Source of the DNA: Desulfurobacterium thermolithotrophum DSM 11699
GTDB lineage: Bacteria > Aquificota > Aquificia > Desulfurobacteriales > Desulfurobacteriaceae
DNA: 64,000 bases
Assembly (NCBI RefSeq): GCF_000191045.1
Contig: NC_015185.1
Location: forward strand, 1,246,501-1,310,500
Reading direction: 5' to 3'
Below the pieces are notes generated by a model. It did not search any database. It was not told the origin of the DNA and saw nothing but the letters and a program-made list of their open reading frames with translations. Position 1 is the stretch's first letter. Each line of letters begins with the position of its first letter. This document shows positions 18,827-48,180 of the stretch, piece after piece. The translations under genes were made by a program, and so were the position numbers.

Positions 18827-18840
18827 AAGATGTCACCCCC

Positions 18841-19036
18841 TGAAATTCGGGACTATAGTAAAGAGGCAACCTTTAAAGGCAGGAGGCTGGATTTTTCCCT
18901 GGGGAATAAGCCCCGTGCGTGGAGATTAGCCGATGCCTCCTGCCGGCTAATTATAGTGGCGGGAAGCGCCGTATTGGAGTATGGGAATAGTTCCGAAGCA
19001 GAGGTTGCAAAACACAAAACATATCAGGGGGTAGAG
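18841..19036 (+). ncRNA. Candidate IS110 bridge RNA region
   Basis: The non-coding left end upstream of the transposase. Helices visible: GCAACCT (18866-18872) with AGGTTGC (19002-19008), closing about 140 nt; GGCAGGAGGC (18878-18887) with GCCTCCTGCC (18935-18944), 10 bp; GGGG/CCCC around 18901-18914; ATTAGCC (18925-18931) with GGCTAAT (18945-18951), which crosses the 10-bp helix and would form a pseudoknot or an alternative fold; GGCG/CGCC at 18958-18970. In characterised IS110 members this region encodes the RNA with target- and donor-binding loops. The guide loops were not assigned here. The transposase frame stays open through the region by chance. Confidence 0.6.
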
Positions 19037-20137
19037 ATGAAGGAGAAGGTAGAGAAAACACTGTATGTCGGAGTGGACTACCACAAAAACAGCTTTACAG
19101 CAGCTTATTTAGATTGTCTGACAGGGATACTTAATACCAAGAAGTACGAAGCAGAAGAGTTAGAGAAATTTAAAAATCACCTAACAACTTTTAGGAAAAA
19201 AGGATATTCAGTAAAAGTTGCGGTAGAAACCTTAACAGGAGTAACATTTTTTACGGAGGAGATAAGGAACTGCGTTGATGAAATAACTTACGTTAACACT
19301 AACAAATTTAAGAACATTCTAAAAGGTGTTAACAGTGCTAAAAACGACAGGATAGATGCAGAAACGATAGCCATTTACTATGAAATGGGCTTACTTCCGA
19401 CAGTTTACGTCCCGACGAGAAAAGAAAAAGAGCTAAGGATAAAGATGAAAGAGAGAGATAGCTTTGTAGATATGAGAAAAGGGGTAATTAACAGACTTCA
19501 TAGCCTATTGCTTGAATATGGGATAAAGACAAACAAGAGAGAACTCACCACGAAGAAAGGGATGGAAAGGATAAAGGAAGAAACGAAGAAGAAAGTGCCT
19601 CCGTCATTACGAGAAACGATATGGAGGCAAATAGAAACAATAGAATACTTAACAGATAAGATAAGAGAGACAGAAGAAGATATCAAGAGTTTTATAGGAG
19701 AAGATGAGGAGCTTAAGGGAAAAGTAGAACTTCTAAAAAGCATACCTGGAGTAGGAGATATAGTAGCTATAGCCTTTATATCTGCCGTATGTAACGAAGA
19801 GAGGTTTGAAAACGGAGACAAGGTAGCGGCTTATTTTGGACTTGTTCCTCGTGTTAATAGCAGTGGAGACGAAGTTAGAAATGGAAGGATAACAAAGAAA
19901 GGGGACAGCAGAACGAGGAACAAGATTATCCAGGCTACGAGAGCGTTATTGAACAGCAAGTTAGACAATTCAGTTAAAAGATTTTACGAAGGGTTAGTTA
20001 AGAAAGGTTTAGAGAAGAAGAAAGCGCTGATAGCTGCGGCGAGGAAATTGGTTAAAGTAATGTTCGCAGTTTTGAGAGAGAGAAGGCAATTTATGGATTT
20101 TGTTGAAAATAAATGCAACCTCTGTGTTGGGGGTTGA
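19037..20137 (+). CDS. IS110-family transposase (DEDD recombinase)
   Basis: 366 residues. N-terminal RuvC-like DEDD domain: D14 in YVGVDYHK, E64 in VAVETLTG, D104 and D107 in KNDRIDAE. C-terminal Transposase_20 domain with IPGVGD and GLVPRVNSSGDE, which holds the catalytic serine region (S275/S276). I start at the ATG at 19037, preceded by GGGGG and directly before the conserved fold; the frame extends upstream to 18830 but that stretch is the structured RNA region. All catalytic residues are intact, so the element may be active. Confidence 0.92.
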   Translation: MKEKVEKTLYVGVDYHKNSFTAAYLDCLTGILNTKKYEAEELEKFKNHLTTFRKKGYSVKVAVETLTGVTFFTEEIRNCVDEITYVNTNKFKNILKGVNSAKNDRIDAETIAIYYEMGLLPTVYVPTRKEKELRIKMKERDSFVDMRKGVINRLHSLLLEYGIKTNKRELTTKKGMERIKEETKKKVPPSLRETIWRQIETIEYLTDKIRETEEDIKSFIGEDEELKGKVELLKSIPGVGDIVAIAFISAVCNEERFENGDKVAAYFGLVPRVNSSGDEVRNGRITKKGDSRTRNKIIQATRALLNSKLDNSVKRFYEGLVKKGLEKKKALIAAARKLVKVMFAVLRERRQFMDFVENKCNLCVGG

Positions 20138-21100: not shown

Positions 21101-21298
21101 TTACTTGTAAAGTACTAACTGTTTGTAGTTTGCTGCCTGAGCTCCCTCAAGATAAGCAGCTTTTCTTAGCTTTCTTTTCCTCTTTCTACTCTTCTTTGTG
21201 AGAATATGGCTCTTGTTAGGATGCCAGTGCTTAATCTTTCCTTTTGCTGTTACTTTAACCCTTTTTGCTGCAGATCTTCTTGTCTTGATTTTTGGCAT
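21101..21298 (-). CDS. rpmI: 50S ribosomal protein L35
   Basis: 65 residues, basic: [20 protein letters not shown] and [16 protein letters not shown] are the L35 signature. SD AAGGAGG before ATG. Upstream, instead of the usual short gap to infC, lies a long GC-rich folding insert that would be the 5' leader of rpmI-rplT. Confidence 0.95.
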
Positions 21299-21324
21299 TG
21301 CAGAGCCTCCTTACTATTTTAAAA

Positions 21325-21560
21325 ACGAGCGTGAACTATTCCTCATTGAAATGAGGAGCTTCCCGCTTCAACGAGTGCGCTCGCACTCTCTGCGGGCGTA
21401 AGTTCGGGTCGTTCCAACCCTACCGCTCGTAAGGTGAGCGACCCCGCTACCAGTCCCCTCCCCGCATCCACCGTTCATTAGGTAGGTGGATGGGCCGTCT
21501 ACTAGTAGCACACCCGACCTATTCACTTGTTCAAAGACCAGTAGGCTTGGTTATCGCCTT
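21325..21560 (-). ncRNA. IS200/IS605 right-end / omega-RNA-like structured RNA without tnpB
   Basis: Read on the minus strand, the 3' part is GAAGCGGGAAGCTCC, a hairpin CCTCATT/AATGAGG (21341-21356), then GAATAGTTCAC, which is how TnpB-associated omega RNAs and IS605 right ends commonly finish. Before it: GAGTGCG/CGCACTC (21373-21388) enclosed by CCCGC/GCGGG (21362-21366 with 21392-21396), CGCTC/GAGCG near 21424-21440, GGGTCG/CGACCC (21406-21411 with 21439-21444) and CATCCACC/GGTGGATG (21465-21472 with 21485-21492). The region is far richer in GC than the flanks. No tnpB or tnpA frame is present. An L20-type autoregulatory leader is the main alternative. Confidence 0.55.
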
Positions 21561-21566
21561 GCGTAA

Positions 21567-21575
21567 ATTATATCA
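21567..21575 (-). promoter_or_regulatory. Extended -10 promoter before the structured leader
   Basis: TGATATAAT on the minus strand is a perfect TATAAT with an extended -10 TG. Start would fall near 21560, exactly where the folded region begins. No good -35 is seen, as is normal for extended -10 promoters. It could drive the structured RNA and rpmI-rplT. Confidence 0.45.
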
Positions 21576-21579
21576 AACA

Positions 21580-21631
21580 ACGGCTTACGCCGTGCGCTGT
21601 ATCTCCCCTTTGAAAAGGAGAGGATTAGCGC
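21580..21631 (-). repeat. Nested hairpins at the infC-proximal side of the insert
   Basis: ACGGC/GCCGT (21580-21593) and a larger structure GCGCT/AGCGC (21594-21598 with 21627-21631) that encloses CTCCCCTTT/AAAGGAGAG (21603-21611 with 21614-21622, one mismatch). The position fits the left-end hairpin of an IS200/IS605 element from which the coding part has been deleted; it could also act as an attenuator after infC. Confidence 0.4.
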
Positions 21632-21653
21632 AAAATTCTTCCTAAATTATAGG

Positions 21654-22175
21654 CTATTTTTTCTTAGGTGCAAGTATCATAATCATATCTCTACCTTCTT
21701 TCTTAGGCTTCTTCTCTATTTCCGCTATATCCTGGACAGCTTCATATATCTTCATAAGTTGAGCTTCTCCTAACTCAATATGAGCCTGTTCTCTTCCTCT
21801 AAACATAACTACTGCCTTTACTTTATTTCCTTTCTCAAGGAATTTTCTAGTCTGTTTTATTCTTACTTGTAGGTCATGTTCATCTGTTCTTGGACGTACC
21901 TTTACAGTCTTAACCTCAATTGTTTTTTGCTTCTTTTTCGCTTCATGCATCTTTTTCTGCTGCTGATACTTGTACTTTCCATAATCCATAATACGGCAAA
22001 CGGGAGGATTAGCATTTGGGGAAACTTCAACAAGGTCAAGACCTTGCTCCTTTGCTAGTTGCAATGCCTTTAGCGTAGGCATTACTCCTAACTTGGTTCC
22101 GTCACTGTCAATAACTAGAACTTCCCTTGCTCTAATTTTCTCGTTTACCCTTGTTTGATCAAGCTTCTTACTAAT
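21654..22175 (-). CDS. infC: Translation initiation factor IF-3 (AUU start)
   Basis: 173 residues from an ATT codon at 22175-22173. Upstream of the first internal ATG (22082) the frame encodes RVNEKIRAREVLVIDSDGTK, the conserved IF-3 N-terminus, so the true start must be earlier, and no ATG, GTG or TTG exists there. The ATT follows AAGGAGGG at proper spacing and gives a normal-length IF-3. An AUU start on infC is known from Escherichia coli and lets IF-3, which rejects non-canonical codons, limit its own synthesis. The SD overlaps the end of thrS, 17 nt downstream of it in the operon. Confidence 0.93.
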   Translation of the reverse strand: MSKKLDQTRVNEKIRAREVLVIDSDGTKLGVMPTLKALQLAKEQGLDLVEVSPNANPPVCRIMDYGKYKYQQQKKMHEAKKKQKTIEVKTVKVRPRTDEHDLQVRIKQTRKFLEKGNKVKAVVMFRGREQAHIELGEAQLMKIYEAVQDIAEIEKKPKKEGRDMIMILAPKKK

Positions 22176-47205: not shown

Positions 47206-48116
47206 AAAGATATGCTTACTTTGAAGGAAAATTTGTTCCTATCGAGGAAGCTAATATAAATATTCAGACAAATTCCTTTCACTATGGAACAGCTATTTTT
47301 GAGGGAATTAGAGCTTACTGGAATGAAGAAAAACAGCAACTTTTTGGACTTTTCTTTAAAGAACATTACGAAAGAATGTTAAGAAACTGCAAAATCCTAA
47401 ACCTTCAAGTTGAAAAAAGTGCCGATGAACTTGTGGATATTACTGTAGAGCTCCTAAGAAAATGCCAACACAGAGAAGATACTTACATTAGACCTATAGC
47501 TTACTTTTCTGACCTTAAGATTTCTCCAAAACTTATTGGCTACAAAACAGAAGTCGCTATCTACACCCTTCCTCTTGGAGATTATTTAGACCTTTCAAAA
47601 GGATTAAAGGCTAAAACTTCTTCTTTCCACAGAATAAACGACACAATGATTCCGGCAAGATGCAAAGTTGCAGGTGCCTATGTAAATAGTGCATTTGCAA
47701 AGACAGAAGCACTTCTTAACGGCTATGATGAAGCAATTATGCTTAATCCTGACGGAACAGTTGCAGAAGGAAGTGGTGAAAACCTTTTCATTGTTAGAAA
47801 CGGTAAGCTTATAACACCACCTTCTCACAGCAACATTCTTGAAGGTATTACAAGAAATGCAGTAATCGAACTTGCAAAAAACGAACTTGGAATTGAAGTT
47901 GAAGAAAGACCTATTTTAAGAAGCGAAATTTATGTTGCAGATGAAGTCTTCTTTACAGGAACTGCAGCTCAAGTTGCTCCAGTTGTTCAGGTTGATCACG
48001 TAACCATAGGAAATGGTGAAATAGGTGCTATTACCAAAAAGCTTCAAGAAGTTTACTTTTCAATAGTTAAGGGAGAAAACAAAAAGTACTCTCACTGGTT
48101 AATTCCAATTTACTGA
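47202..48116 (+). CDS. ilvE: Branched-chain amino acid aminotransferase
   Basis: 304 residues, fold type IV PLP enzyme. SFHYGTAIFEGIRAYW, the PLP lysine in NSAFAKTEALLNGYDEA, GSGENLFIVRNGK and FFTGTAAQVAPV are all present. It makes valine, leucine and isoleucine from their keto acids. ATGA overlap with lgt; SD AGGAGG. Confidence 0.95.
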   Translation: MKRYAYFEGKFVPIEEANINIQTNSFHYGTAIFEGIRAYWNEEKQQLFGLFFKEHYERMLRNCKILNLQVEKSADELVDITVELLRKCQHREDTYIRPIAYFSDLKISPKLIGYKTEVAIYTLPLGDYLDLSKGLKAKTSSFHRINDTMIPARCKVAGAYVNSAFAKTEALLNGYDEAIMLNPDGTVAEGSGENLFIVRNGKLITPPSHSNILEGITRNAVIELAKNELGIEVEERPILRSEIYVADEVFFTGTAAQVAPVVQVDHVTIGNGEIGAITKKLQEVYFSIVKGENKKYSHWLIPIY

Positions 48117-48119
48117 TTT

Positions 48120-48180
48120 CCTCCCCTCTACCGCTGTGAGGGGTTTCCCGCTTCACAGGGTGCGACAGCACTCTAAAAGA
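48120..48180 (-). repeat. IS200/IS605 right-end remnant
   Basis: On the minus strand: a hairpin in GAGTGCTGTCGCACCC, then GTGAAGCGGGAAACCCCTC, hairpin CCCCTC/GAGGGG (48123-48128 with 48138-48143), then GAGGAAATCA. It resembles the end of the infC-rpmI insert (both contain GAAGCGGGAA followed by a terminal hairpin). No tnpA/tnpB is adjacent. It also lies directly after ilvE, where the hairpin could act as a terminator. Confidence 0.5.

Follow-up and report, generated by a model that had tools for sequence, protein, structure and literature searches.

Gene-less derivatives of IS605 elements are usually taken as passive debris. The guide RNAs of TnpB nucleases have a known role in cutting the empty site, and IscB systems possess stand-alone, trans-acting omega-RNA loci, i.e. 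guide RNA loci devoid of a nuclease gene. In IS200/IS605 elements such as ISDra2, as well as in IS607 elements, the scaffold of the TnpB omega-RNA (reRNA) occupies the element's 3′ terminus, and the guide is taken from the flank (PMC10097598, PMC11061315); the scaffold of the IS607 TnpB guide RNAs is known as RAGATH-18 (PMC11061315). Gene-less PATEs (palindrome-associated transposable elements) of the IS200/IS605 superfamily, such as that of Halanaerobium hydrogeniformans, combine an IS605 left-end hairpin with a tnpB tail and the full right end in ~270–310 bp (PMC7290912). IStrons, in turn, join a structured RNA module, a group I intron, to IS605-type parts and transposon ends (PMC4227781).

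The window analysed here (the whole 64,000-nt stretch of the Desulfurobacterium thermolithotrophum DSM 11699 genome, G000 in the following) contains a 311-bp element that shares features with each of these systems. It resembles the Halanaerobium PATE in its gene-less state and its ends, but has its own –10 box and a 94-nt pseudoknot (the core), is present in several copies, and has this core in common with other element families. Its scaffold lies at the element 3′ end and its putative guide in the flank, as in known TnpB reRNAs; unlike these, it does not adjoin tnpB and bears an extra 5′ module that is absent from the tnpB-bearing elements tested. From the IscB loci it differs in its TnpB scaffold, in the mobile ends still bounding it, and in the extra pseudoknot; from IStrons in that no group I intron was found and that its RNA module is much smaller. 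Judged by its sequence, the element is probably a non-autonomous, guide-only member of the IS200/IS605 superfamily, in which transposon ends enclose a promoter-like box, a 5′ hairpin, the core, and an omega-RNA scaffold.

On the minus strand, the gene order is thrS, infC, rpmI (L35), and rplT (L20), and the element lies in the interval between the end of infC (21654) and the start of rpmI (21298). The apparent start of infC is an ATT codon (window 22173–22175, minus strand) following GGAGGGTATC; ATT is a rare start that is used by E. coli infC, too. In the direction of transcription, the features of the locus are as follows.

21646–21673, minus strand: native rpmI promoter (–35 TTGCAC, 21668–21673; –10 TATAAT, 21646–21651).
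21642–21646, minus strand: target and predicted TnpB TAM, TTTAG, kept 5′ of the left end.
21331–21641, minus strand: whole family A element, non-autonomous, IS200/IS605-type, 311 bp.
21573–21641, minus strand: left end, with an imperfect hairpin (21594–21631) and a second, short terminator-like hairpin (21580–21593).
21567–21575, minus strand: extended –10 box TGATATAAT, with a predicted RNA start near 21560.
21543–21559, minus strand: predicted RNA 5′ hairpin, AGGC-GATAACCAA-GCCT.
21446–21539, minus strand: core, a conserved pseudoknot module of ~94 nt (GGTCTTTGAACAA...GGGGACTGGTAGC) between promoter and omega-RNA.
21331–21445, minus strand: TnpB omega-RNA scaffold, which is the right end, 115 nt.
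21340–21358, minus strand: right-end hairpin CTCCTCA-TTTC-AATGAGGA, followed by the terminal TAGTTCAC (21331–21338).
21311–21330, minus strand: putative guide GCTCGTTTTTAAAATAGTAA in the host flank, i.e. the native rpmI leader up to the ribosome-binding site.
21101–21298, minus strand: rpmI (L35), the gene 3′ of the element, followed by rplT (L20; 20690–21037).

Folding of the element yielded –127 kcal/mol, as compared to a mean of –101 kcal/mol for shuffled sequences (z = –5.06; 0 of 100 dinucleotide shuffles were as good). An initial annotation of this DNA had reported a GC-rich, heavily folded minus-strand insert in the infC–rpmI gap, terminating in GAAGCGGGAA-hairpin-TAGTTCAC, and both the insert and this terminus, with 21331 as the last base, were recovered. 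The same annotation let the element begin at an extended –10 sequence; while TGATATAAT is indeed found at 21575–21567, it is preceded by a left end of ~70 nt. Two features had gone unmentioned, namely the repeat nature of the element and the 94-nt pseudoknot module inside it.

A search of the own genome revealed further full copies, 99% identical, at 1351445–1351760 (plus strand) and 79341–79656 (plus strand), and a partial copy at 560080, amounting to three full copies and one partial. Two additional loci in G000 (644075–645830 and 770222–771980) share only the element's two ends, located ~1.7 kb apart, and at both of them tnpA (Y1, 151 aa) and tnpB (393 aa) lie in between. At 770222–771980 tnpA is broken; at 644075–645830 it is intact, and both proteins of this partner are complete (TnpA: PF01797, 139.5 bits; TnpB: PF01385, PF07282, PF12323). 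The left end is 97% identical to that of the intact tnpA–tnpB element over 74 nt (query 5–78, TTTAG included), and the right end (query 206–320, 115 nt) shows 94% identity to the 3′ terminus of the same intact element. Since its ends match those flanking a resident tnpA and tnpB, the element derives from a resident IS200/IS605 element by loss of the genes, as had been proposed; the search for a tnpB with a matching right end elsewhere in the genome, named as a check by the initial annotation, was thus positive. Membership in IS200/IS605 is further indicated by subterminal hairpins at both ends (LE, RE) that match the intact element. No ORF for a Y1 TnpA is contained in the element and the single intact PF01797 gene of G000 lies outside it, so it can only be a non-autonomous derivative; being gene-less, multicopy, and bounded by resident IS ends, it has the hallmarks of a PATE or MITE. 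As for the insertion sites of the other full copies, that at 79341 (L024) breaks deoA (thymidine phosphorylase) and that at 1351445 (L023) interrupts the start of a nucleotidyltransferase-like ORF. More generally, G000 contains 21 matches to the TnpB TNB domain (PF07282) vs. one intact Y1 TnpA (645281–645646), and many TnpB-only elements must therefore depend on few transposases.

The element borders were drawn from the TTTAG common to the copies, the deoA frame, and the empty sites of relatives. All family A left ends inspected are preceded by TTTAG (CTTAG in one case). Joining TTTAG to the right flank of the deoA copy restores the reading frame (...YEETLALTKSML...); as this frame would also be kept with 2 or 8 nt retained, 5-nt retention was chosen because TTTAG is common to the copies and not by the deoA frame alone. 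Insertion thus occurred 3′ of a short target and without target duplication, as is the case for IS200/IS605 elements.

rpmI could be located in 19 of the 22 genomes of the family (present genome counted), and the insert was absent from all 18 others with rpmI. The upstream gene is separated from rpmI by 41–44 bp in most relatives and by 65 bp in one (G003); in three relatives the automatic stop-codon pattern was unmatched, the 150 bp upstream of rpmI still being without the insert. The TATAAT upstream of rpmI is kept in relatives (TTGACA-17-TATAAT in G003), and the element is inserted at TTTAG directly after this native –10 box and before the native transcript start. Consequently, transcription from the native promoter now enters the element, and the rpmI–rplT mRNA would carry the element RNA as its 5′ leader. 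This position, together with the promoter-like box and a predicted guide ending exactly at GGAGG, could be taken to mean that an omega-RNA-like element was retained as the leader, as had been proposed, because it regulates rpmI–rplT (L20/L35 supply), e.g. through L20 binding or a TnpB cut upstream of the ribosome-binding site. However, an empty site in 18/18 relatives and 99% identity among the copies mark the insertion as recent, and not as a conserved or L20-type leader, and near-identical copies reside at unrelated sites, within unrelated genes. An L20 leader would have no space in a native gap of mostly 41–44 bp, and none was matched in Rfam at the gathering threshold or at E values up to 10; other Rfam families likewise gave no hit to the element at gathering. 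Only the native promoter and the ribosome-binding site are conserved at the infC–rpmI locus, and as the element is absent from this gap elsewhere, there is no sign of selection on the rpmI copy. The two findings that the initial annotation had named as speaking against its reading, an L20 leader match and a structure shared by the infC–rpmI gaps of relatives, were thus both looked for, and neither was seen. The element is mobile DNA and not an old regulatory leader; there is no support for a role in rpmI regulation, and we consider retention as a leader very improbable.

The 115 nt of the right end also terminate tnpB elements in several genomes. Over 13 sequences, the five helices of this region covary: 12 pairs are changed on both sides, a number reached by 0 of 500 shuffles (5.7 on shuffling), and slid versions all scored far lower than the proposed helices. 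A structured RNA overlapping both the tnpB 3′ end and the IS right end is what defines a TnpB omega-RNA (reRNA), and the match to the tnpB element and the covariation together support the earlier view that an IS605-type right end overlaps such an RNA here. In the rpmI copy, a single G-to-A change leaves the right-end hairpin with a mismatched outermost pair. With RAGATH-18 (RF03064) the scaffold shares a CCCG...GTTGAAGCGGG stem, but its score (30.0 bits, E = 0.001, 21360–21396) lies under the gathering cut-off of 44.9; the scores of relatives are similar. The position of the putative guide follows from the layout of TnpB omega-RNAs (PMC11061315, PMC10097598). Elsewhere in the window, at 48102–48175 (minus strand), a decayed right-end/omega-RNA remnant (GAGTGCTGTCGCACCCTGTGAAGCGGGAAACCCCTCAC...GAGGGGAGGAAATCA) adjoins an ilvE-like gene at its 3′ end.

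Every family for which sequence 5′ of the core is present has a –10 box in this region (TGnTAnAAT; in two, TATAAT), at a distance from the core of about 21–28 nt in A-type and C-type and ~110 nt in B-type elements. A generic sigma-70 scan missed the internal promoter, and a good –35 is absent; the TGATATAAT box nevertheless supports the proposal that the element RNA has a promoter of its own.

Downstream of this box lies the core, for which an alignment of ten sequences shows 35 invariant columns. The alignment folds into two nested helices and a crossing one (GGCCG with CGGCC, AACC with GGTT in L096). Together, the three helices comprise 11 pairs with two-sided changes; shuffles give 6.5, and 1 of 500 reached this count. 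The covariation score is 0.43, compared to 0.25 after shuffling, where 0 of 500 were as high. Slid versions collapse, a control that favours the structure by construction because the structure was proposed from the same sequences. A covariance model (R1) retrieved 15 core copies from 6 of the 136 genomes of the phylum, all within one family (Desulfurobacteriaceae) and three genera. The core was seen only in non-coding elements and not in the tnpB-bearing elements tested (negative controls including L021, L022, L124, L160, and L161), nor, by pattern search, in viral contigs; it has no Rfam counterpart. As to its origin, a CRISPR repeat or rRNA was considered and rejected, own-genome DNA searches having yielded nothing but copies of the element and short matches due to chance. 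An HDV-like ribozyme, which the crossed helices and hairpin recall, was discarded for want of a P3 and a catalytic-C motif in our own comparison.

At 94 nt, the core is short for a group I intron. One could envisage an IStron-like chimera in which the core would be part of a ribozyme, splicing or cleaving itself so as to hide insertions or release the 5′ end of the omega-RNA. A conserved and compact pseudoknot immediately preceding the omega-RNA would fit, as would the two copies within coding sequences and the precedent of IStrons, where a group I intron is joined to parts of IS605 elements (PMC4227781). Yet neither a group I intron (Intron_gpI) nor a ribozyme was matched at E values up to 10, or up to 5 for family B, beyond partial hits at chance level, and we give this scenario hardly any credence.

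The same core precedes omega-RNAs belonging to three lineages of TnpB, A, B, and C, that share 31% identity or less. Family B elements (~410 bp, core-bearing) have three copies in G000, and their ends match those of a tnpB-only element (419 aa TnpB, 656446–657954); their right end resembles sot0042, a sense overlapping transcript RNA family, at 5.7e-5, albeit under the Rfam gathering score. In type C (G001, contig 108), the core leads into an omega-RNA-like tail that belongs to a third TnpB (477 aa). In a genome from another family of the class (G056), several ~230-bp elements (L152, L153, L154) consist of LE, the same GATAACCAA hairpin as in the element here, and omega-RNA, with the core absent. 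These core-less elements suggest that gene-less omega-RNA elements are more widespread and that the core is an addition.

Alternatively, only the DNA ends of a plain PATE or MITE might matter to TnpA, the middle and the right-end RNA being passive baggage. TnpA is expected to need nothing but the end hairpins, and the Halanaerobium PATE likewise kept a tnpB tail and the whole right end (PMC7290912). Against this stand the covariation of the omega-RNA and core helices, the restriction of the core to non-coding elements, the –10 box 5′ of the core in every family, and the pairing of one core with three different omega-RNAs, which leave passive baggage a rather unlikely explanation. The occurrence of the same 5′ module before three divergent omega-RNAs instead suggests selection for guide production in trans. 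On sequence grounds, the element RNA is probably supplied to TnpB in trans, and a guide for a TnpB encoded elsewhere, as originally suggested, is plausible. Most likely, the core itself works on the guide RNA's 5′ side and independently of TnpB; processing, stability, or transcription through the fold are our guesses at its role. More tentatively, and with more doubt than confidence, the ~94-nt core may be a portable RNA domain, not described before, which gene-less IS elements join 5′ of the guide RNAs of unrelated TnpBs, giving rise to guide-RNA genes that act in trans as parasites of nucleases; it might then be a processing, stabilising, or nuclease-hijacking module, possibly a ribozyme.

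In the guide-only reading, the Y1 TnpA of the intact element would move the gene-less one in trans. The element promoter would drive an RNA of ~250 nt whose last 20 nt are copied from the host flank; transcription of rpmI–rplT could also start there. Loaded with this RNA, the resident TnpB would cut the empty site, TTTAG followed by the guide sequence (TTTAG-GCTCGTTTTTAAAATAG), upon departure of the element or its encounter with an unoccupied allele, and repair would then restore the element. Such cutting of the empty site would favour element retention; the occupied rpmI site would be no target because TTTAG is not adjacent to the guide sequence. Because the ribosome-binding site begins exactly where the predicted guide stops, TnpB could, in processing the RNA 3′ end, cut the mRNA immediately 5′ of GGAGG; such a cut could be a side effect, and there is no evidence of regulation. 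The gene-less elements described here thus look like guide-RNA genes, with promoter box, structured 5′ module, omega-RNA, and guide. If so, the use of relatives' TnpB by MITEs for their own retention and spread would become directly testable in one cultured thermophile.

Some minor observations concern the surroundings of the copies. A family B copy (L029, 2499–2939, minus strand) lies just 5′ of the apparent cutA 5′ region, near TauE and rpsB. Common ancestry of the copies near rpsB in G000 (L029) and G001 (L121) is not claimed, as gene order is similar but flanks differ. The window also encodes an IS110-family transposase (18830–20137, plus strand; 435 aa, PF01548/PF02371), of which near-identical copies are present in L029, beside the family B element, and, truncated, in L022.
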